A stretch of DNA of 41,624 nucleotides, taken from positions 1-41,624 of the forward strand of contig JAIQGD010000010.1 in assembly GCA_020072765.1 (NCBI GenBank), written 5' to 3'. Position 1 is the stretch's first letter. Each line of letters opens with the position of its first letter. The stretch comes from Terriglobia bacterium. Its GTDB lineage: Bacteria; Acidobacteriota; Terriglobia; Acidiferrales; UBA7541. Below, piece by piece: positions 2,728 to 23,160 of the stretch. Position numbers and translations under genes: made by a program. The notes beneath the pieces were generated by a model. That model was given only the letters and a program-made list of their open reading frames with translations, was not told the DNA's origin and did no database searches.

Positions 2728-2897
2728 CCTTGTTGAAAAACCTTCCGAGCTTGTCATTCCGAGGAGCGGAGCGACGAGGAATCCCTCTTTTCCCTAGCCA
2801 TGGGCGACGAGAGATTCCTCGTTCCGCAACCCCATCCGGAACGCAAACCTCGCGCTTCGCTCGGAATCACAGGAACAAAAGCGTTCTTCAACAGGCC
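2728..2897. repeat. Palindromic, MITE-like intergenic element
   Basis: The ends are near-perfect inverted repeats: CCTTGTTGAAAAACC at the left (2728-2742) and the reverse complement of CCTGTTGAAGAACGC at the right (ending about 2895). Inside, GTCATTCCGAGGAGCGGAGC on the left is answered on the opposite strand by GTGATTCCGAGCGAAGCG. The whole can fold into a long hairpin of about 170 bases. There is no open frame that looks coding. It resembles the non-autonomous palindromic repeats with a TGTCATTCCGAG core seen in many bacterial genomes. Confidence 0.6.
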
Positions 2898-2972
2898 GTG
2901 AGAGACTGGCCCAACTGCAAGACACCTTCCGAACAATGGCGGCCGCTTCCCGTCGCACGCCTCACCCGTTCG

Positions 2973-4559
2973 TCAAATGATCATCTTGAAGCGAGGCCAG
3001 AGCACGGCGAGCGGCGCGCGCGGCTTGCGGCAGAGGTACACAGGAAGGCGCTGTTCGACCGGCATGGCGTGCGCACTGGCGATGGTGGCCACGCGCTGCA
3101 CATCCTCGAAATAGGTAATGAACTCGCTGGATCGCTCGCCGAACACGATCACGCACCCGCCCGAGTAACCCCGCGGCCCCCAGTCAAAATAGCTGTTGTG
3201 TCCACTCAGGGCTTTGGGAAGCCCCAGTGCCGGCCCGTAATAATCAATCGCTCCCGCTTCGCCGTAGTTGCCCGCTAGAATCGCGCAGTCCGCCCGCTCC
3301 GCCGCAGGCAGATCGTGGTACACGCCCGCCACCGTCGCGGCCATGTTTTCCCAACCGAACATGTCGGCGTAGAGCTGCGGAAGTTCGACTTGGACGGCGT
3401 CGCGTTCCGTCTTCGCCATGGTCGCATACGGCAGCGCCTGGGAATATTGGAGGAAAGCCTGCACCGGCAGAACCGGGACGCCGAACGGCAGCGCGGCCAG
3501 TCCTCCCACAGCCAACAGCGCAGGACACGCCGTTCTCAGCCATCGTCGGTCGCGCGATTGGGCCAGCGATTCCACCGCCGCTCCTCCCGCGGCCATCACC
3601 AGCGGATAGACGGGCAGCGCGTAGTACGATTTTCCGCTCAGAATCATGAAGGCGCCCAGCACGATCAGCCACGCCCAGCCCAAGAACTGGAAGCGCCTCC
3701 CTTCCCGGCGCACACAAAGCCAGATCACCCCGGCCAGCCACACGGGAAGCGCCAACGGCTGAAGGAACGCCACCTGGTCCGCGAGGAAGCGCAGCGGCGA
3801 AACCGGAAGATTCTTGTACAGCCGCGCATTGCGCACCACTTCAATCTGCGGCCAGCCGTGGCGCGCCTCCCACAGCAGGTTCGGAAGGAAAATCCCGAGC
3901 GCGATCGCCACGCCCAGCCAGATCCATTTCGAGCCCAGCATGCGCCCTTGGCCCGCGAGAATCAGCCCGGCGACCAGCGCAAAACCAAAAACCAGCATCG
4001 TGTGCTTGTTCTCCAGCCCCACGCCCGCGATGGCGCCAAACGCCAGCCACCACTTCGGGGAAGCTCCCTTCACAATCCGAACGGCAATCCAGGCGCACAC
4101 GAGCCAAAAAAGTGGTTCAAACGCGTTCATGGAAAGAAAGCTGTCGAAGGCCAGATAGGCCGGCGCAAGCAAAATTCCCGCGGCGGCGAGAAACTGCGCG
4201 AAGCGGCCCCCGCCGAGTTCGCGCGCCAGCACGCCCGTGAGAAACACGACTGCGGCGCCGGCCAGCGCCGGGAACAAGCGGATGGAGATCAGGGAATTGC
4301 CGAACAGATGCCGGGCCAGCCACGCCACCAGGGCGATGAGCGGAGGCTGATCCACGTAGCCCCAGGCCAGATGCTCGCCGCAGGCCAGGTAGTAGAGTTC
4401 GTCGCGAAAGAAGCCGTACTGGCGGATGCCCGCAAATTGCATGAGCAGCTTGGCCATGGCCAAGCCCACAAGAATACCCGTCGCGCTGGCGGCTTCCGCC
4501 CGCAGGAGAGCCGGCGCGACGGCCCGCTCGTTGCCTTCCGCCACTCGAATCTCGTTCAT
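2973..4559 (-). CDS. Integral membrane glycosyltransferase, GT39/ArnT-like (PMT_2 domain)
   Basis: The 528-residue protein has about ten hydrophobic helices and the first-loop signature of polyprenyl-phosphate-sugar dependent transferases: FRDELYYLACGEHLAWGYVDQPPL (51-74; DE at 53-54 is the usual catalytic pair, GYVDQPP the second motif). Such enzymes move a sugar from a lipid carrier to lipid A, protein or another lipid on the outer face of the inner membrane. A soluble C-terminal periplasmic portion follows about residue 380. The ATG at 4559 is taken; an in-frame GTG at 4574 would add five residues, and neither has a strong ribosome site. It follows the cyclophilin gene by about 50 bases, so it may be the last gene of the sdh transcript. 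The substrate is unknown. Confidence 0.8.
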   Translation of the reverse strand: MNEIRVAEGNERAVAPALLRAEAASATGILVGLAMAKLLMQFAGIRQYGFFRDELYYLACGEHLAWGYVDQPPLIALVAWLARHLFGNSLISIRLFPALAGAAVVFLTGVLARELGGGRFAQFLAAAGILLAPAYLAFDSFLSMNAFEPLFWLVCAWIAVRIVKGASPKWWLAFGAIAGVGLENKHTMLVFGFALVAGLILAGQGRMLGSKWIWLGVAIALGIFLPNLLWEARHGWPQIEVVRNARLYKNLPVSPLRFLADQVAFLQPLALPVWLAGVIWLCVRREGRRFQFLGWAWLIVLGAFMILSGKSYYALPVYPLVMAAGGAAVESLAQSRDRRWLRTACPALLAVGGLAALPFGVPVLPVQAFLQYSQALPYATMAKTERDAVQVELPQLYADMFGWENMAATVAGVYHDLPAAERADCAILAGNYGEAGAIDYYGPALGLPKALSGHNSYFDWGPRGYSGGCVIVFGERSSEFITYFEDVQRVATIASAHAMPVEQRLPVYLCRKPRAPLAVLWPRFKMII

Positions 4560-4610: not shown

Positions 4611-5318
4611 CTACGGCTTCGGCGCAGCGCTCCCGGCGGCGGGCGCAACAATCGTCGCCGACGTGATGCGGTCGAGATTCGGGAAACTCTTGTCCAGATA
4701 CGCTTTGCCCTGCATGGTGATGGCGCCCTGGTCCGGCTTCTCTCCGTAACCTTTATAAAGTTGCTTCACCACGTCCATCCCCGAGGTCACCGTGCCGAAC
4801 GGGGAGAAACCCTGGCTGTCGAGAAACGTGTTGTTGCCGAAGTTGATGAACAGCTGCGTGGTGCGCGTGTTGGGTCCCGCCGTGGCAAACGTCAGCGTGC
4901 CGGGACGATTGCTCTGCGTGACCTTGTCATCCTTGATTCGGGCGCCCTGCCACACGCGGGAAACCGCCGGGTCGGCGCTCAGCCCGAATTGCACGATAAA
5001 ATCCGGGACCACGCGGAAAAACGCCGCGTCGGTGAAGAAGCCGTGCTGCACCAGATTGTAGAACCGGTCCGCGCCGATCGGCGCCCACGCCCGCGTGACC
5101 TTCACCACGAAATCGCCCTTCGTGGTGCTGAACTTCACCTCATACACATCCGGGGCCGTCGCGTTCAGAGTTTCCGGGTGCAGCAAAGCAGGATCGGTCG
5201 TCATGTGGGTTGTCCTCGTCTCGGTCGGATGTGCTGCGGTTTGCGCCTGCCCCGCGCCTGCGGCGAGGGCCACGGCAAAATAAACACAAAGCGAAACTAA
5301 AGCAGCCAGAAGTTTCAT
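4611..5318 (-). CDS. Exported cyclophilin-type peptidyl-prolyl isomerase
   Basis: This is a 235-residue protein. Residues 1-26 form a signal peptide (hydrophobic run then AGAGQAQTA), so it acts in the periplasm, where cyclophilins speed proline isomerisation during folding. The cyclophilin core runs from about residue 60 to 220: VKFSTTKGDFVVKV, DRFYNLVQHGFFTDAAFFRVVPDFIVQFG, TQLFINFGNN and GFSPFGTVTSGMDVV match the conserved blocks, including the FFRVVPDFIVQ active-site segment. The tail is Ala/Pro-rich. It lies between sdhB and the glycosyltransferase on the same strand, 142 bases from sdhB. Confidence 0.92.
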   Translation of the reverse strand: MKLLAALVSLCVYFAVALAAGAGQAQTAAHPTETRTTHMTTDPALLHPETLNATAPDVYEVKFSTTKGDFVVKVTRAWAPIGADRFYNLVQHGFFTDAAFFRVVPDFIVQFGLSADPAVSRVWQGARIKDDKVTQSNRPGTLTFATAGPNTRTTQLFINFGNNTFLDSQGFSPFGTVTSGMDVVKQLYKGYGEKPDQGAITMQGKAYLDKSFPNLDRITSATIVAPAAGSAAPKP

Positions 5319-17288: not shown

Positions 17289-19058
17289 ATGCCCCCTGAC
17301 ACCAATCAAGGTCAAGTCGGAGAACTGGAACGCCTCGCCCCCGCCCGCTTCTCGGATTTGACCGCAGCCGAAATCAAGTTGCTGCGTGCCGCGCCCAACG
17401 GCGACCTAGCCGTTTGCGGCCCAAGCAAGGAGAATCATGACCCCGCCAATGATCCAGCAAAGGCCGACGAATGGGGCAAAGAGCGCGAAATCCGCGCCGA
17501 CCTGATTCGCTGGCTCTGCGTGGATCGCCAAGCCCGAGAGATGGTGGACCCTAAGGGGATTCTCGTGGCTGGAGCCAAGATATTGGGCACGCTGGATCTC
17601 TCCTATGCCAGAGTCCCCTTCGGCCTGAATCTCTGGCGTTGCCGTTTGACCGGCAAAACGAACCTGCAAGCTACGGAGATCGCTGAACTCGATTTCCAAG
17701 GCAGTTGGCTAGATTCGATCGACGCCGACAGTGTTAAGGCGAAGGGTAACGTTCTTTTTTGCAGAGGCTTCCACGCCACAGGACAAGTACGACTGCTGGG
17801 TGCCGAGATCGGAGGGGGTCTCGACTGCACCGGTGCCACATTTGAGAACCCACTACAGTCCGAAGTCCCTGGCGCATTGATCGCGGACCGCGCTGTCGTC
17901 AAGGGCAGCGTCTTCCTGAAAGACGGCTTCACGGCCAAGGGTGAAGTGCGACTACTGAACGCCGAGATCGGAAGCAATCTCGACTGCAGCGGTGGCAAAT
18001 TTGAGAGCCCGCCCCAAACAGGAGTCGCTGCGAGGGGCGATGCATTCAGCGCCGACGGCGCCCTCGTCAAAGGCAACATCTTCCTTAAGCAAGACTTCAG
18101 CGCCAAGGGCGCAGTACGACTTCCAGCAGCCCAAATTTGGGGCGACCTCACCTGCAGCGGTGGCACATTTGCCGGAACATTAATGCTGGAAAGAGCTTCA
18201 ATCAAAGGTACGCTGTGGTTGGATGTCGCTGATGCTGCCCACGTAAGTCTTGATCTTATAAATGCGTCGGTAGATGCACTTGTTGATAACACGAAGAGCT
18301 GGCCCGCGCCCGGAAACCTCGCCCTCGACGGATTTGTTTACAGGCGTTTTTCCGCCGGCGCTCCAAACGACGCCGCGAGTCGCCTCGACTGGCTCGCTCG
18401 CCAAGCGCCGTTTGTGCCGCAACCATATCGCCAACTCGCCAAGGTCCTGAGAGACGAAGGCGACGACTCGGGTGCGCGGCGTGTGCTCTACAAAATGGAG
18501 TGTCGGCGGAATAGCGACGAAGGGCACGTATGGAAACCGCAGGCGACGCACGGCTGCATCCGGCAATCAATCAGCTACGTTTCGCACCATCTTAAGGCGC
18601 CGGCAGTTAGCGTTTGGAACGCTGCCTTGCGGCTAACGATAGGATACGGCTACTACCCCGGAAGGGCCCTTGCTTTGCTGCTGCTCTTCGTGGCCCTCGG
18701 ATGGCCCCTGTTTCGGTGTGGCTACTTCTACTGGAACATCGTCCCGTCCGAAAAGGAGGCGTACTCGGACTTCAAGAAGGATCACCGGCCTCCCGCGCAC
18801 TACGAACGATTCTGCGCGTTCGTCTACTCTTTGGAGAACTCTTTTCCTTTGGTGAAACTGGGCCAAGTCGACCGCTGGCAGCCCGACCCAAGCCCGCCTG
18901 AGCCGCACGATCCAGCGAAAGACTCAATCCGTCGAATGGGTCGGGCTTTTGTATCGGCAGGATTCCTGCGCATATTCCGATGGTTCCAGATTCTGCTCGG
19001 GTGGGTTCTTGCCACACTTTTTGCCGCCGGCGTCACCGGGGTTGTTCGCAAAAACTGA
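17289..19058 (+). CDS. Beta-helix repeat protein with C-terminal membrane domain
   Basis: The function is unknown. The 589-residue product has three layers. An N-terminal part (1-100) starts with LERLAPARFSDLTAAEIKLL. A repeat region (about 95-345) contains three obvious copies at 155-187, 208-240 and 264-296, each of the form V-F-x-GF-x-A-x-G-x-VRLL-x-AEIG-x-LDCSG-x-F, spaced 53-56 residues, which suggests a right-handed beta-helix like pentapeptide proteins. The C-terminal part (about 450-589) has hydrophobic helices at 457-476 and 566-586 around FVYSLENSFPLVKLGQVDRW. I recall very similar repeats in actinobacterial proteins labelled, on weak grounds, membrane-associated oxidoreductase; no redox motif is visible. 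Its codon use is less GC-rich than the neighbours, consistent with transfer. Confidence 0.75.
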   Translation: MPPDTNQGQVGELERLAPARFSDLTAAEIKLLRAAPNGDLAVCGPSKENHDPANDPAKADEWGKEREIRADLIRWLCVDRQAREMVDPKGILVAGAKILGTLDLSYARVPFGLNLWRCRLTGKTNLQATEIAELDFQGSWLDSIDADSVKAKGNVLFCRGFHATGQVRLLGAEIGGGLDCTGATFENPLQSEVPGALIADRAVVKGSVFLKDGFTAKGEVRLLNAEIGSNLDCSGGKFESPPQTGVAARGDAFSADGALVKGNIFLKQDFSAKGAVRLPAAQIWGDLTCSGGTFAGTLMLERASIKGTLWLDVADAAHVSLDLINASVDALVDNTKSWPAPGNLALDGFVYRRFSAGAPNDAASRLDWLARQAPFVPQPYRQLAKVLRDEGDDSGARRVLYKMECRRNSDEGHVWKPQATHGCIRQSISYVSHHLKAPAVSVWNAALRLTIGYGYYPGRALALLLLFVALGWPLFRCGYFYWNIVPSEKEAYSDFKKDHRPPAHYERFCAFVYSLENSFPLVKLGQVDRWQPDPSPPEPHDPAKDSIRRMGRAFVSAGFLRIFRWFQILLGWVLATLFAAGVTGVVRKN

Positions 19059-19478: not shown

Positions 19479-19513
19479 TCACGAGTCACGAGTCACAAGT
19501 CACGAATCACCCA
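19479..19513 (+). repeat. Degenerate 7-nt tandem array
   Basis: Five consecutive heptamers: TCACGAG, TCACGAG, TCACAAG, TCACGAA, TCACCCA. The last covers the stop codon of the transporter gene (TCA 19507-19509 on this strand). Confidence 0.75.
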
Positions 19514-20835
19514 AACAGCCCCGCGGCGGAAGGCAGGAAAATCTCGGCGTAGAGGAGGACCAGCGTGAGGACGATCATGATGATGCTGGCGCCCCACGCG
19601 ATGACGTTGAAACCCCAGGAATTCGTGTGTTCGCCCATCAGGTCGCGCCGGTTGATCAGCAACAGCATGAAGATCAGCACCACGGGGAGCCACACGCCGT
19701 TGGCCACCTGCGAGAGAACCAGAATCTTCATCAGCGGTGCCTTCGGAATCAGGATGATGCCCGCGCCCGCCACAATCAGCAGCGTGTAGAGCGAATAAAA
19801 CGTCGGCGCTTCCTTCAGTTTGTTGTCCAGGCCCGCTTCGAAGCCCAGCCCCTCGCAGATCACGTGCGCGGTCGAAAGCGGCAGGATCGACGCCGCAAAC
19901 AGCGACGCGTTGAGCAGCCCGAAGGCGAACAGGCTGGCCGCCCATCGGCCCGCCAGCGGCTTCAGCGCCTCCGCGGCCTGCGCCGCGTCGGTAATGCTGG
20001 TCAGGCCGTGCACGTTCAGCGTCGCGGCGCAGCACACGATGATGAAAAACACAATCACCATGCACGACACGCTGCCCACCAGCACGTCCAGCCGCGCATG
20101 CTTATACTGCCGCGCCGCCACCCGCTTCTCGACGAACCCCGCCTGCAAATAGAAGAACTGCCACGGGGCGATGGTCGTGCCGATCAGCGCCGTAAGCATC
20201 AGCAGGTAGCCCGTATTCATGTGCAGCGAGGGCAGCACGGTTTGCTTGGCGGCCAACAGCCAATCCGGCTTGGCCAGAATCGCCGACACGATGTAGGAAA
20301 GATACAGCCCGCAAGCCACCAGAAAAATTTTCTCCACCTGGCGGTAGCTGCCGCGCACCACCAACACCCACACGGCCAGCGCCGCCAGTGGAACCGAAAC
20401 GTATTTGCTGACGCCGAAGATTTGCATGGCGGCGGCGACGCCCGCGAATTCCGCCACCGTGTTTCCCAGGTCCACCACGAAAGCCGCCAGCATCACGAAG
20501 AACGTCGAGCGAAAGCCGAACTCCTCGCGGATCAGGTCCGAAAGGCCCTTGCCCGTCACCACCCCCATGCGCGCGCACATCTCCTCGCTCACGTACAGCG
20601 CGATGGTCATGGGAATCAGCGACCACAGCAGGGCGTAGCCGAATTGCGCGCCCGCTTGCGTGTACACCGTGATGCCGCCCGCGTCGTTGTCCACGTTCGA
20701 GGTGATGATCCCCGGCCCGACCACGGCCAGAATGATCGCCAGCCGCCGGCGCAGCGAGCGCGTGCGGCGGCCGAATTCCTTCCCGCCGGCCGCCAGGCGC
20801 GAGAACGTGTCCCTCAATGTGCTCCACGTGTTCAT
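19507..20835 (-). CDS. Nramp-related divalent metal transporter, probable Mg2+ type
   Basis: The 442-residue protein has about eleven membrane helices and the Nramp (LeuT-fold) pattern, but the two metal-site motifs differ from Mn2+/Fe2+ members. The helix-1 DPGN is DAGG (51-54, in NVDNDAGGITVYTQAGA), keeping Asp51. The helix-6 MPH is APW (223-225, in GTTIAPWQFFYLQ), so the methionine that favours transition metals is alanine. As I recall, loss of this methionine marks the Nramp-related magnesium transporters. The gene begins 57 bases after the stop of a PRC-MgtE_N-CBS protein on the same strand, which supports Mg2+ as cargo. Specificity for Mg2+ is inference. The stop lies in a 7-nt tandem array. 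Confidence 0.88.
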   Translation of the reverse strand: MNTWSTLRDTFSRLAAGGKEFGRRTRSLRRRLAIILAVVGPGIITSNVDNDAGGITVYTQAGAQFGYALLWSLIPMTIALYVSEEMCARMGVVTGKGLSDLIREEFGFRSTFFVMLAAFVVDLGNTVAEFAGVAAAMQIFGVSKYVSVPLAALAVWVLVVRGSYRQVEKIFLVACGLYLSYIVSAILAKPDWLLAAKQTVLPSLHMNTGYLLMLTALIGTTIAPWQFFYLQAGFVEKRVAARQYKHARLDVLVGSVSCMVIVFFIIVCCAATLNVHGLTSITDAAQAAEALKPLAGRWAASLFAFGLLNASLFAASILPLSTAHVICEGLGFEAGLDNKLKEAPTFYSLYTLLIVAGAGIILIPKAPLMKILVLSQVANGVWLPVVLIFMLLLINRRDLMGEHTNSWGFNVIAWGASIIMIVLTLVLLYAEIFLPSAAGLFG

Positions 20836-20892
20836 GACATTCGAAAGGGCCGGACCTCCCGGCCCTGCGGCAACCTTATTCCTCTCTCCGCT

Positions 20893-22134
20893 TCACAGCC
20901 GGGCGCGCAGCCGGCTCACCACGTCGTCCACGGTGATGGCCCCGATCGGGCAATTCCCCTCGTTCACCACCGTCAGACTGCGCAGATTGTATTTGTCAAA
21001 CAGCTCGAACACTTCTTTGTCGCCCAGGTCCGGCTTCACCGAAAGCAGCGGCTCAAAAACCAGTTCGGCCATGCGCTGATTGCTGGCCGCGAGAACGATG
21101 TGCGCCAGCGGCACCGTGCCCGCCAGGGCCGCCTCCCGATTGATCAGGATGATGTTGTCGAGCTGGTCCGGCTTCACCTCGTGGAAACGGATGTAATCGA
21201 TCACCTCGCCGCGGGTGGCGTCTTCGCCCACCACGACGATCTCGGTGGTCATCATGCCGCCGGCGGTGTTCTCCTCGAAGCGCAGCAACGCCTCGACTTC
21301 ATGCGCTTCGGTCCTCTGCATCTCTCCGAGAACTTCCTTGGATTTCGCCGGTTCGAGGTTCTGCATCAGGTCGGCGGCCTCGTCCGGATTCATCTCCTCC
21401 AGAATGTCGGCGGCCCTTCCGGGGGTGAGCTTCTCGACCACCTGCGTTTGCAGGCGCTTGTCGAGCTCCGCGATCGTCTCGGCGGCGGTCTCTTCGTCCA
21501 GCGAGTCCACAATCGACTGCCGCTCGGCAGGCGACAGCTCTTCCATGATGTCGGCCAGGTCCGCCGGGTGCAGCTCGGCGAGTTTCTGGCTGGACAGGCG
21601 CAGTTTGACCCGGCGCAGGGGGTCGGGCTCGATCAGGTTGACGAACTCCCAGCGGATCGTCCGGGTCGGCAGTTTTTCCTGGAGCCGGCGGATGGCCATG
21701 GGCGGCACCACGCCTTGCAGCAGCCGCCGGACCGCGGCCGGCAGTCCGACATCCACCTGCGTGACGCGCAACTCCGTGTTCCCGTTGGTGCGCTGGTCCG
21801 CCAGATCCACATCATTGACGCGCACGACCTTGCGGCCGTTGGTGTCAATGATCTGCTGATCGAGCAAGTCCTTGCGGACCGCCAGCCAGGCTTCGTTGGG
21901 CTGGTAGAGCTCCAGCGTCGATTCGTCCGTGGTCAGGTCCACGCGGCCCGGACTGACCGCACCGATCTGGTTGTACCGCGCGATCAGCGGGCGGTACCGG
22001 CCCCGGCCCAGCAGGAGCCGCGAGACGCGGTTCGGCTGTTCGGCCGGGACAATGAACATCTCCTTCACGCGGCCGACGAAATGGCCGAGCGAGTCGTACG
22101 CTTCGGCTCCGAGAACTTCCGTGGCATGCAGCAT
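20893..22134 (-). CDS. Soluble PRC-barrel, MgtE_N and CBS-pair protein, probable Mg2+ sensor
   Basis: The 413-residue protein has no membrane helix. Residues 1-150 look like PRC-barrel material (DSLGHFVGRVKEMFIVP; DTNGRKVVRVNDVDL). About 185-290 is an MgtE N-domain of stacked helices (HPADLADIMEELSPAERQSI; GRAADILEEMNPDEAADLM). About 290-413 is a CBS pair, with ENTAGGMMT at the junction as in MgtE. In MgtE these two domains sense cytosolic Mg2+ and gate the channel, but the MgtE channel domain is missing here. The next gene is an Nramp-related transporter, so the protein may gate or regulate it. Start ATG 22134 has GGAG eight bases upstream. A longer frame from TTG 22206 would run into the terminator hairpin and is rejected. 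Confidence 0.85.
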   Translation of the reverse strand: MLHATEVLGAEAYDSLGHFVGRVKEMFIVPAEQPNRVSRLLLGRGRYRPLIARYNQIGAVSPGRVDLTTDESTLELYQPNEAWLAVRKDLLDQQIIDTNGRKVVRVNDVDLADQRTNGNTELRVTQVDVGLPAAVRRLLQGVVPPMAIRRLQEKLPTRTIRWEFVNLIEPDPLRRVKLRLSSQKLAELHPADLADIMEELSPAERQSIVDSLDEETAAETIAELDKRLQTQVVEKLTPGRAADILEEMNPDEAADLMQNLEPAKSKEVLGEMQRTEAHEVEALLRFEENTAGGMMTTEIVVVGEDATRGEVIDYIRFHEVKPDQLDNIILINREAALAGTVPLAHIVLAASNQRMAELVFEPLLSVKPDLGDKEVFELFDKYNLRSLTVVNEGNCPIGAITVDDVVSRLRARL

Positions 22135-22204: not shown

Positions 22205-22245
22205 AAAAAAAAAGCCCGGAACCGGCAGTGCTTCCGGCCACGGGC
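22205..22245 (-). terminator. Strong intrinsic terminator upstream of the MgtE_N gene
   Basis: On the minus strand, GCCCGTGGCCGG (22245-22234) pairs with CCGGTTCCGGGC (22225-22214) around an eight-base loop, then nine T residues follow (22213-22205). It lies about 70 bases upstream of the MgtE_N start and downstream of the CYTH gene on the same strand. It either ends the CYTH transcript or acts as an attenuator in the leader of the metal-transport operon. Confidence 0.85.
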
Positions 22246-22266
22246 ACGCAGAAAACCGCGCTCGGA

Positions 22267-22473
22267 TTACTTCAGGCCGGGCCTTGCCTCCCTGTGCCCG
22301 CGCGCCCATCCGCAACGGGCGCTCACGGGTTCAACAAAGGGGTCGGTCAGACACGCCGCACACGCGCCGCGTTCGAAAGCGCGAAGCTGTTCTGCGGCTC
22401 CTGGCCAGGCCTTCCCTGCCGGCCCGGCGGAGCAGCTACTTCCCGGCTCCGAATTGGACGAAACCGATTCCAT
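22267..22473 (-). CDS. Possible small protein, 68 residues
   Basis: A frame from ATG 22473 to TAA 22267 begins MESVSSNSEPGSSC and holds four cysteines, including CAAC at 38-41. GGGAGGA lies about 13 bases before the ATG and the terminator at 22205-22245 follows closely. These favour a real short gene or a leader peptide. Against it, the composition is that of chance high-GC frames and I know no relative. The remaining bases 22474-22524 and 22246-22266 show nothing else. Confidence 0.25.
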   Translation of the reverse strand: MESVSSNSEPGSSCSAGPAGKAWPGAAEQLRAFERGACAACLTDPFVEPVSARCGWARGHREARPGLK

Positions 22474-22524
22474 CGCGGTGCTCGTGTCCTCCCATTTGAC
22501 TAGTAGCGGCAGATGAAATTTTTG

Positions 22525-23160
22525 TCAAGCAAAGAGTGCACGTTTGGCCGATTTTTGCGCTTCAAACAGCATATTTTCCGGAAAACGGCCGCGGCGGCGG
22601 CAATCCGCGGCGTACAGATCCCAGTAGGTGCCCCGAATGTAGTCCCGCGGGGAAAAACCCAGGGCGCGGGCGGCGCGGTCGATGCCTCGCGGCGCACCTT
22701 CGATCTCCAGAAAGTCGCCCACCGGCGTCTCGTCCAGGTCCAAATGCAGCCCGGGGAGACGATAGGCGGTGCGGTATTTCTCGTAGCGGAAGCCAGGTTG
22801 CATCCCCAGCGCGCGCAGAACGGAAGGCCAACGCTCCGGGATCCGCACCTCCCGTTCCCGTTCCAGCTTCTCCTTGTAGCGCGAGCCGGACGGAGACCGG
22901 ACGGGGGCTTTGGCTGTGATCACGCCCCGCCGCGAACCGCTCCGCACGCCCGGCAGGCCGGCCGGCGTCTCGATGCGCAACCGCAGAAGGCGCCCCCGGC
23001 GGCAGAGATCGCCCCCGGGCGTGTCGTACAACGCGTTCCGCTCGAGGACGCGTCCGAGCGAGGTGGCACCGAGACGGCGAAGAGTGCGCCGCAGAGCCGG
23101 CAGGTCCGCGATGCGCAGCTTGATTTCTGTTTCGCGGGTGGCAACACGGCGAGCGGGCAT
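22525..23160 (-). CDS. CYTH-domain (triphosphate tunnel) phosphohydrolase or cyclase
   Basis: CYTH enzymes form an eight-strand tunnel that binds triphosphates and divalent metal; members include thiamine triphosphatase, inorganic triphosphatase and class IV adenylate cyclase. The 211-residue product starts with the ExExK motif (ETEIKLRI, residues 9-16), then YDTPGGDLCRRGRLLRLR, an ITAKAP lysine strand, EKLEREREVRI, EKYRTAYRL, HLDLDETPVGDFLEIEG, the last with the paired acidic residues that bind metal. Start ATG 23160 (MPARRVATRETE) is preferred to an upstream TTG frame. The substrate is not clear from sequence. It is divergent from mutS. Confidence 0.87.
   Translation of the reverse strand: MPARRVATRETEIKLRIADLPALRRTLRRLGATSLGRVLERNALYDTPGGDLCRRGRLLRLRIETPAGLPGVRSGSRRGVITAKAPVRSPSGSRYKEKLEREREVRIPERWPSVLRALGMQPGFRYEKYRTAYRLPGLHLDLDETPVGDFLEIEGAPRGIDRAARALGFSPRDYIRGTYWDLYAADCRRRGRFPENMLFEAQKSAKRALFA

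Follow-up and report, generated by a model that had tools for sequence, protein, structure and literature searches.

A two-gene operon in which a soluble protein with the sensing domains of MgtE precedes an Nramp-type transporter of the NRMT branch was analysed in a soil acidobacterium (Terriglobia bacterium, Acidobacteriota; assembly GCA_020072765.1, contig JAIQGD010000010.1; genome 96.6% complete). The whole stretch of DNA, hereafter referred to as the window, comprises 41,624 nucleotides (nt). We favour, with modest confidence, the reading that the operon encodes an NRMT-type Mg2+ uptake system together with the detached, soluble sensing half of MgtE, and that its expression is set by attenuation in the leader. 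This reading is built on the strict co-occurrence of the two genes, on the replacement of MgtE by the pair in most genomes, on Mg2+ riboswitches upstream of homologous operons and on a conserved short open reading frame (ORF) followed by a terminator upstream of the operon in the clade of the window.

Pairing of the sensor and transporter genes

The sensor gene (positions 20893..22134 of the window, minus strand, ATG at 22134) encodes a protein of 413 amino acids (aa) with PRC-barrel, MgtE_N and CBS regions and no channel. It lies 5' of the transporter gene (19507..20835, minus strand; 442 aa), from which it is separated by 57 nt. Positions and order were re-read and agree with the two-gene arrangement at 19507-22134 described in the original prediction, which had been made from the letters of this DNA.

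Searches with the sensor protein yielded 174 relatives. The best 80 were retained, and almost all of these are listed under Acidobacteriota. The transporter gene follows directly 3' on the same strand in 76 of these 80, and the contigs of the other four end 4-182 nt after the sensor gene; the adjacency is thus not due to chance. Both genes are intact in 66 of the 76 pairs, and in these the gap between them has a median of 39.5 nt (range -4 to 476); the remaining ten were dropped because a gene was cut, contained a stop codon or was of odd length. In one locus (L108:3264-4304) an unrelated ORF of 346 aa separates the two genes, which are 1.1 kb apart.

Profiles of both proteins were used to scan 237 Acidobacteriota genomes. 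Among the matches listed, sensor and transporter were both present in 71 genomes and both absent from 166, which excludes random association of the two genes in Acidobacteriota. The main NRMT type (match of at least 470 bits) was found in 60 genomes, all of which contained a full-length sensor. A second NRMT type accompanied the sensor in 11 further genomes, with the gene order reversed; as its scores overlap with those of unpaired Nramps (one member reaches 286.7 bits, unpaired proteins up to 294), this type is assigned partly by adjacency. Five genomes showed weak sensor-profile matches alone and no pair. The layout in the 71 genomes was sensor before transporter within 500 nt (25 genomes) or within 0.7-5.6 kb (17), reversed (11), or unlinked (18, of which 17 had the genes on different contigs and one had them 199 kb apart). 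Long frames in genomes G129, G145, G160 and G213 were inspected as candidates for fused sensor-transporter proteins; separate stops were found in each, and none is fused.

As judged from genomic distribution, a functional unit of sensor and transporter is supported, and this part of the coupled system proposed in the original prediction stood. Its novelty did not. In the parts of their text available, Shin et al. 2014 (PMC4072509) already report that most NrmT genes adjoin a homologue of the MgtE N-terminal domain and that some NrmT operons carry M-box riboswitches, and they put forward feedback regulation as a speculation. The operons described there (A. capsulatum Acp2976-2977, C. acetobutylicum Ca_c0685) resemble that of the window in the two protein families, their adjacency and their order, and A. 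capsulatum is likewise an acidobacterium. The window differs in having no M-box and, instead, a conserved leader ORF and terminator. Pairing and feedback idea are hence in print; new are the exact co-occurrence, the MgtE replacement, the M-box on homologues with the same metal site, the PRC-barrel assignment and the leader ORF-terminator. Neither the PRC-barrel nor exact co-occurrence was found mentioned in the available text of the 2014 paper.

Sensor domains, transporter metal site and Mg2+ context

Along the sensor protein a PRC-barrel region (residues ~1-130) is followed by a linker, MgtE_N (188-289; Pfam E 5.6e-26) and a CBS pair (~293-411; E 6.6e-9). The protein matches the cytosolic half of MgtE (2yvy) both in sequence (E 1.8e-28) and in predicted fold (E 9.6e-19). 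The MgtE channel domain PF01769 found no match in the sensor or across the whole window genome. In the window sensor by itself the PRC-barrel is sub-threshold (E 0.0026); family-wide, PF05239 matches 40/40 members at E<=1 (best 7e-11), and the AlphaFold model of residues 1-174 (mean per-residue confidence, pLDDT, 83) matches the PRC-type CdpB1/B2 structure 8qzo (E 3e-4) and, more weakly, 1pm3, 8onw (PRC1/PRC2) and reaction-centre H subunits. Judged by profile and predicted fold, the N-terminal part is a PRC-barrel, and the domain composition originally read from the sequence, PRC-barrel, MgtE_N and CBS without the channel, was borne out. An invariant W162-E-F-x-N-L stretch in the linker adjoining the PRC part is a candidate contact site.

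The Mg2+-sensing residues of T. thermophilus MgtE (TtMgtE) we take to be E59, D91, D95, E216, D226, D247 and D250; a literature search on these residues yielded nothing relevant. All 40 sensors examined retain the equivalents of D91 and D247, 37 of them that of D95 and 19 that of E59. The sensor thus shares with TtMgtE (2yvy, 2yvx) the MgtE_N domain and CBS pair, the fold and three sensing aspartates; it differs in having an N-terminal PRC-barrel in place of the membrane channel and in the changes at other sensing residues.

The transporter matches Nramp (PF01566, E 2.8e-96). Its closest solved relative is EleNRMT (7qia; 351 bits, E 6.7e-104), and its best match to an MntH is far below that (110 bits, E 1.2e-30). 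The metal site reads D51-A-G-G54 and T220-T-I-A223-P-W, with Q376; D51, T220 and Q376 align with D55, T224 and Q379 of EleNRMT. DAGG and APW thus stand where a canonical MntH/Nramp site has DPGN and MPH, as had been noted from the sequence at the outset. DAGG and TTIA fit the signature of the NRMTs, DxxG in helix 1 and TxxA/T in helix 6 (PMC8806188, available text). In an alignment of the window protein with 71 relatives (rows of <=250 aa or with internal stops excluded), DAGG is found in 66 of 72 sequences (otherwise four EAGG, one DPGG and one gap). In the helix-6 motif the first position is T in 68 sequences and the fourth is A in 71. These sequence criteria place the transporter in the NRMT branch, which is known for Mg2+; the abstract of a later paper assigns Mg2+ uptake in prokaryotes to this branch (PMC10115441). 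EleNRMT shares the DxxG-TxxA metal site, and the main text of its description (PMC8806188) differs in scope from the present analysis: as available, it contains no 'CBS', 'operon' or 'genomic context', uses 'MgtE' for the transporter or in references, and does not treat a sensor partner. The second Nramp of the window genome (L002:1231-2664) has DAPS and ATVTPW and carries neither the MntH nor the NRMT signature.

The pair replaces MgtE in most genomes. Where the main NRMT type occurs, MgtE was present in 8/60 genomes, vs 130/177 others; with both NRMT types counted, it was present in 11/71 genomes with the pair vs 127/166 without. The exclusion holds within families (p 0.0046; ten families typed from listings). 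In the window genome neither CorA nor the MgtE channel was matched, CorA being found in 14/14 control genomes; a CNNM protein is present.

In a sister clade of 11 loci (L072, L073, L075-L083), whose sensors are ~46-48% identical to that of the window, the M-box riboswitch RF00380 lies upstream of the sensor-NRMT operon in seven. Three of the four loci without a match have <460 nt of upstream sequence. The readable transporters of this clade contain DAGG (9/9) and GTTIAPW (8/9). Since operons with the same metal site thus carry a Mg2+ riboswitch, Mg2+ is favoured for the NRMT branch, although both Mg2+ and Mn2+ may be substrates. No M-box was found in the window or in the other 38 loci scanned, close relatives of the window among them; in the window a leader ORF and terminator stand before the operon instead, where the sister clade has the M-box. 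A genome-wide M-box scan gave 0/237, with ~11 candidates per genome scored and the M-box clade not shown to be among these genomes. In the M-box clade a gene for an OprB-type porin adjoins the sensor-NRMT operon (L083:2822-4522, L082). The porin gene of L083 has an M-box of its own (2845-3018) beside that preceding the sensor gene (4719-4892), and an outer-membrane route under Mg2+ control is possible in this clade.

A conserved leader ORF and terminator

In the clade of the window, promoter, short ORF, intrinsic terminator and operon follow one another in this order. In the promoter-like element, TTGACA-N17-TACTAG (22500..22528, minus strand), the -35 box and the stop codon of the CYTH gene upstream overlap. 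The leader ORF (22267..22473, minus strand) comprises 68 codons plus TAA, with the conserved termini SSNSEPG (N-terminal) and REARPGLK (C-terminal). Between it and the sensor gene lies a hairpin resembling an intrinsic terminator (22205..22245, minus strand; GCCCGTGGCCGG...CCGG..CCGGGC followed by T9; predicted -20.2 kcal/mol). A model of the leader, R1 (22206..22299, minus strand), that extends from the end of the ORF through the terminator has one strong site in the window genome (E 6.2e-21; next match 0.21).

Relatives with this leader fall into group A (the window plus 17) and group B (21). TTGAC-N17-TA(C/G)TAG precedes the ORF in 17/18 group A leaders; a generic promoter scan did not list the leader promoter. 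Terminator hairpins of <=-15 kcal/mol were found in 69/78 leaders, as compared with 10-15/78 in five dinucleotide shuffles and 0/73 stretches inside the sensor gene. Most are of one type, GCCCGyGGCCG...CGGGC-T5-9. In groups A and B the hairpin lies ~17-27 nt past the stop of the short ORF, and in group A this spacing is 17-22 nt regardless of the distance to the sensor gene (31-271 nt).

Group A ORFs comprise 49-70 codons (M...SSNSEPG...REARPGLK); those of group B mostly have exactly 50 (MSASNELEPGP...GWGGFTGG), and the length is 150 nt in 17/21. When measured on nucleotides with frame ignored, the start motif proved to be in frame with the stop in 17/17 group A leaders over seven distinct distances (L010, which has no motif, was dropped) and in 21/21 group B leaders over four. 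For the group A ORFs, the ratio of nonsynonymous to synonymous change (pN/pS) is 0.35 at one end and 0.44 at the other; values as low arose in 7 and 3 of 200 column shuffles, respectively. All three stop codons are used. These features point to a conserved, putatively translated short ORF in the window clade.

Outside this clade, 35 upstream pieces of other families (30 sensor, 5 NRMT) contained four hairpins, all of other types, and lacked any ORF like that of the leader. A literature search with most subscription journals outside its reach found no report of this leader; as of 2010, according to the text available, nearly all predicted attenuators of Acidobacteriota were without assigned function (PMC2965389).

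A counterpart for comparison is MgtL of E. coli. At low Mg2+ ribosomes drop off at its EPDP sequence and mgtA is transcribed; acidic residues near the start, adjacent or one apart, destabilize the ribosome, with proline assisting (PMC11282234, available text). CorL is the leader peptide of corA (PMC11552253, available text). The leader described here resembles these two in being a short ORF upstream of a putative Mg2+ importer, in acidic and proline residues near the start and in potential alternative RNA folds. It differs in phylum, in length (50-70 codons vs a very short peptide) and in having an intrinsic rather than a Rho-dependent terminator. Among their first 13 residues, 20/21 group B ORFs and 0/18 of group A have a pair of acidic residues, adjacent or one apart, followed by proline; 16/18 group A ORFs have a single acidic-Pro. 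As the double motif is confined to group B, the putative link to Mg2+ is stronger there than in the window itself. The GGTAAGT that follows the group B stop codon is complementary to ACTTGCC, which overlaps the first arm of the terminator. By analogy, the leader is a candidate Mg2+-sensing leader-peptide attenuator. A possible long-range helix joining the ends of the leader ORF, suggested by visual inspection, was rejected, as the substitutions are not compensatory.

Proposed regulation and alternative explanations

According to the reading that we favour, NRMT would import Mg2+ and probably Mn2+ as a second substrate. The sensor would close on Mg2+ through the aspartates retained in its N-domain and CBS pair, and the closed form would restrain NRMT at high Mg2+ in a putative gating step. 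At ample Mg2+ the ribosome would complete the leader peptide and the terminator would form; with the ribosome positioned at the stop codon, GGTAAGT would be masked, which would favour termination. When Mg2+ is scarce, early drop-off at the acidic-Pro start would free GGTAAGT for an alternative hairpin, and the operon would be transcribed. A further-reaching version is more tentative, and we hold it to be possible rather than probable: the Mg2+-sensing leader peptide would have evolved independently of enterobacterial MgtL, would control the NRMT-sensor operon via the intrinsic terminator and would replace the M-box of the sister clade. Control would then be double, from ribosome stability to transcription and from the detached MgtE-type sensor to transporter activity.

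Several observations weigh against the favoured reading. RNAalifold found no compensatory pair for the alternative hairpin, pN/pS of group B is 0.88 and not significant (73/200 column shuffles as low), and the leader peptide of the window has a single acidic-Pro (SEP) without the double motif. In the sensors, TtMgtE D226 is replaced by N in 40/40, E216 mostly by K and D250 mostly by S; with D91, D95 and D247 kept and these residues changed, the sensors probably retain the N-domain/CBS closure switch but not the channel-facing contacts. CorA is not replaced (37/60 genomes with the main NRMT type vs 106/177 others), and the window genome also has an MgtA-type pump. Finally, A. capsulatum NrmT was found to be a good Mn2+ and a weak Mg2+ transporter on which the sensor had no effect. 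According to the available text of PMC4072509, it fully rescued a B. subtilis Mn2+ mutant, rescued a Mg2+ mutant weakly and at low-mM Mg2+ alone, and the co-expressed MgtE-like fragment added nothing. We consider this test compatible with gating, since better rescue at low Mg2+ is not what an inhibitor acting by feedback should produce. A literature search, with most subscription journals outside reach, brought up no functional study of the fragment after 2014.

These rescue data also speak for the view that the transporter is mainly an importer of Mn2+ or of divalent cations broadly, with the MgtE-like protein responding to Mn2+ or acting as its chaperone or brake. The original prediction had named Mn2+ selectivity as evidence against itself, and for this one relative such evidence exists. 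In addition, the other Nramp of the window genome lacks DPGN and MPH, and some MgtE Mg2+-site residues are lost in the sensors. Nevertheless we consider this view unlikely, given the M-box on homologous operons with the same metal site, the replacement of MgtE by the pair and the abstract that assigns Mg2+ uptake to the branch (PMC10115441). Moreover, in locus L105 a canonical MntH-type Nramp (DPGN/MPH; 734-1963) lies directly 3' of the NRMT gene, so that a division of labour between Mg2+ and Mn2+ is possible. Somewhat less plausible still is that the sensor serves as a general Mg2+-dependent regulator of other partners, its link to NRMT being shared regulation alone. The 18 genomes with unlinked genes would fit, but none of the 237 has one gene without the other among the matches listed, and shared regulation alone would not require such strict co-occurrence.

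Regarding the leader, it might be a riboswitch-type RNA with aptamer and terminator in which the ORF is incidental. The M-box at the same place in the sister clade, the fixed 150-nt length in group B and its very strong nucleotide conservation past the stop codon (GGTAAGTCC in 21/21 leaders) speak for such an RNA. The maintenance of frame through seven lengths in group A and four in group B, the use of three different stop codons, the bias towards synonymous change at either end of the group A ORFs and the lack of compensatory pairs make it rather improbable, and a search of Rfam with the leader gave no meaningful match even at E<=10. We give still less credence to the idea that the hairpin simply terminates the upstream CYTH gene and that the ORF is noise. 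That gene does lie upstream on the same strand, and GC-rich hairpins with T runs are common; yet a conserved promoter and ORF separate its stop codon from the hairpin, the group A hairpin stays close to the ORF stop however far away the sensor gene lies, and model R1 has a single strong site in the genome.

What the MgtE-like fragment next to NrmT does had been left open in 2014. Strict co-occurrence, MgtE replacement and the M-box on close homologues render a Mg2+ role of the fragment directly testable and indicate the lineages for doing so, and the conserved leader ORF-terminator makes Mg2+ regulation testable. If the leader does sense Mg2+, Mg2+ sensing by way of the ribosome would have an independent example beyond the enterobacteria.

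Short ORFs of other, clade-specific kinds end just before the same kind of terminator in L026, L034 and L068 and in L032, L037, L038 and L044; examples of their ends are MASSRPWGRSTSAD and ...PVALSPGI, each directly before the stop codon. Tandem repeats of ~30 nt fill the sequence directly 5' of the sensor gene in L024 (1-234). Matches to Acido-Lenti-1 RNA were seen near sensor genes (L088:1364-1409, L114:1541-1586, L082:271-316). In the window, an ORF of 589 aa at 17289-19058 has no Pfam match at E<=0.001.

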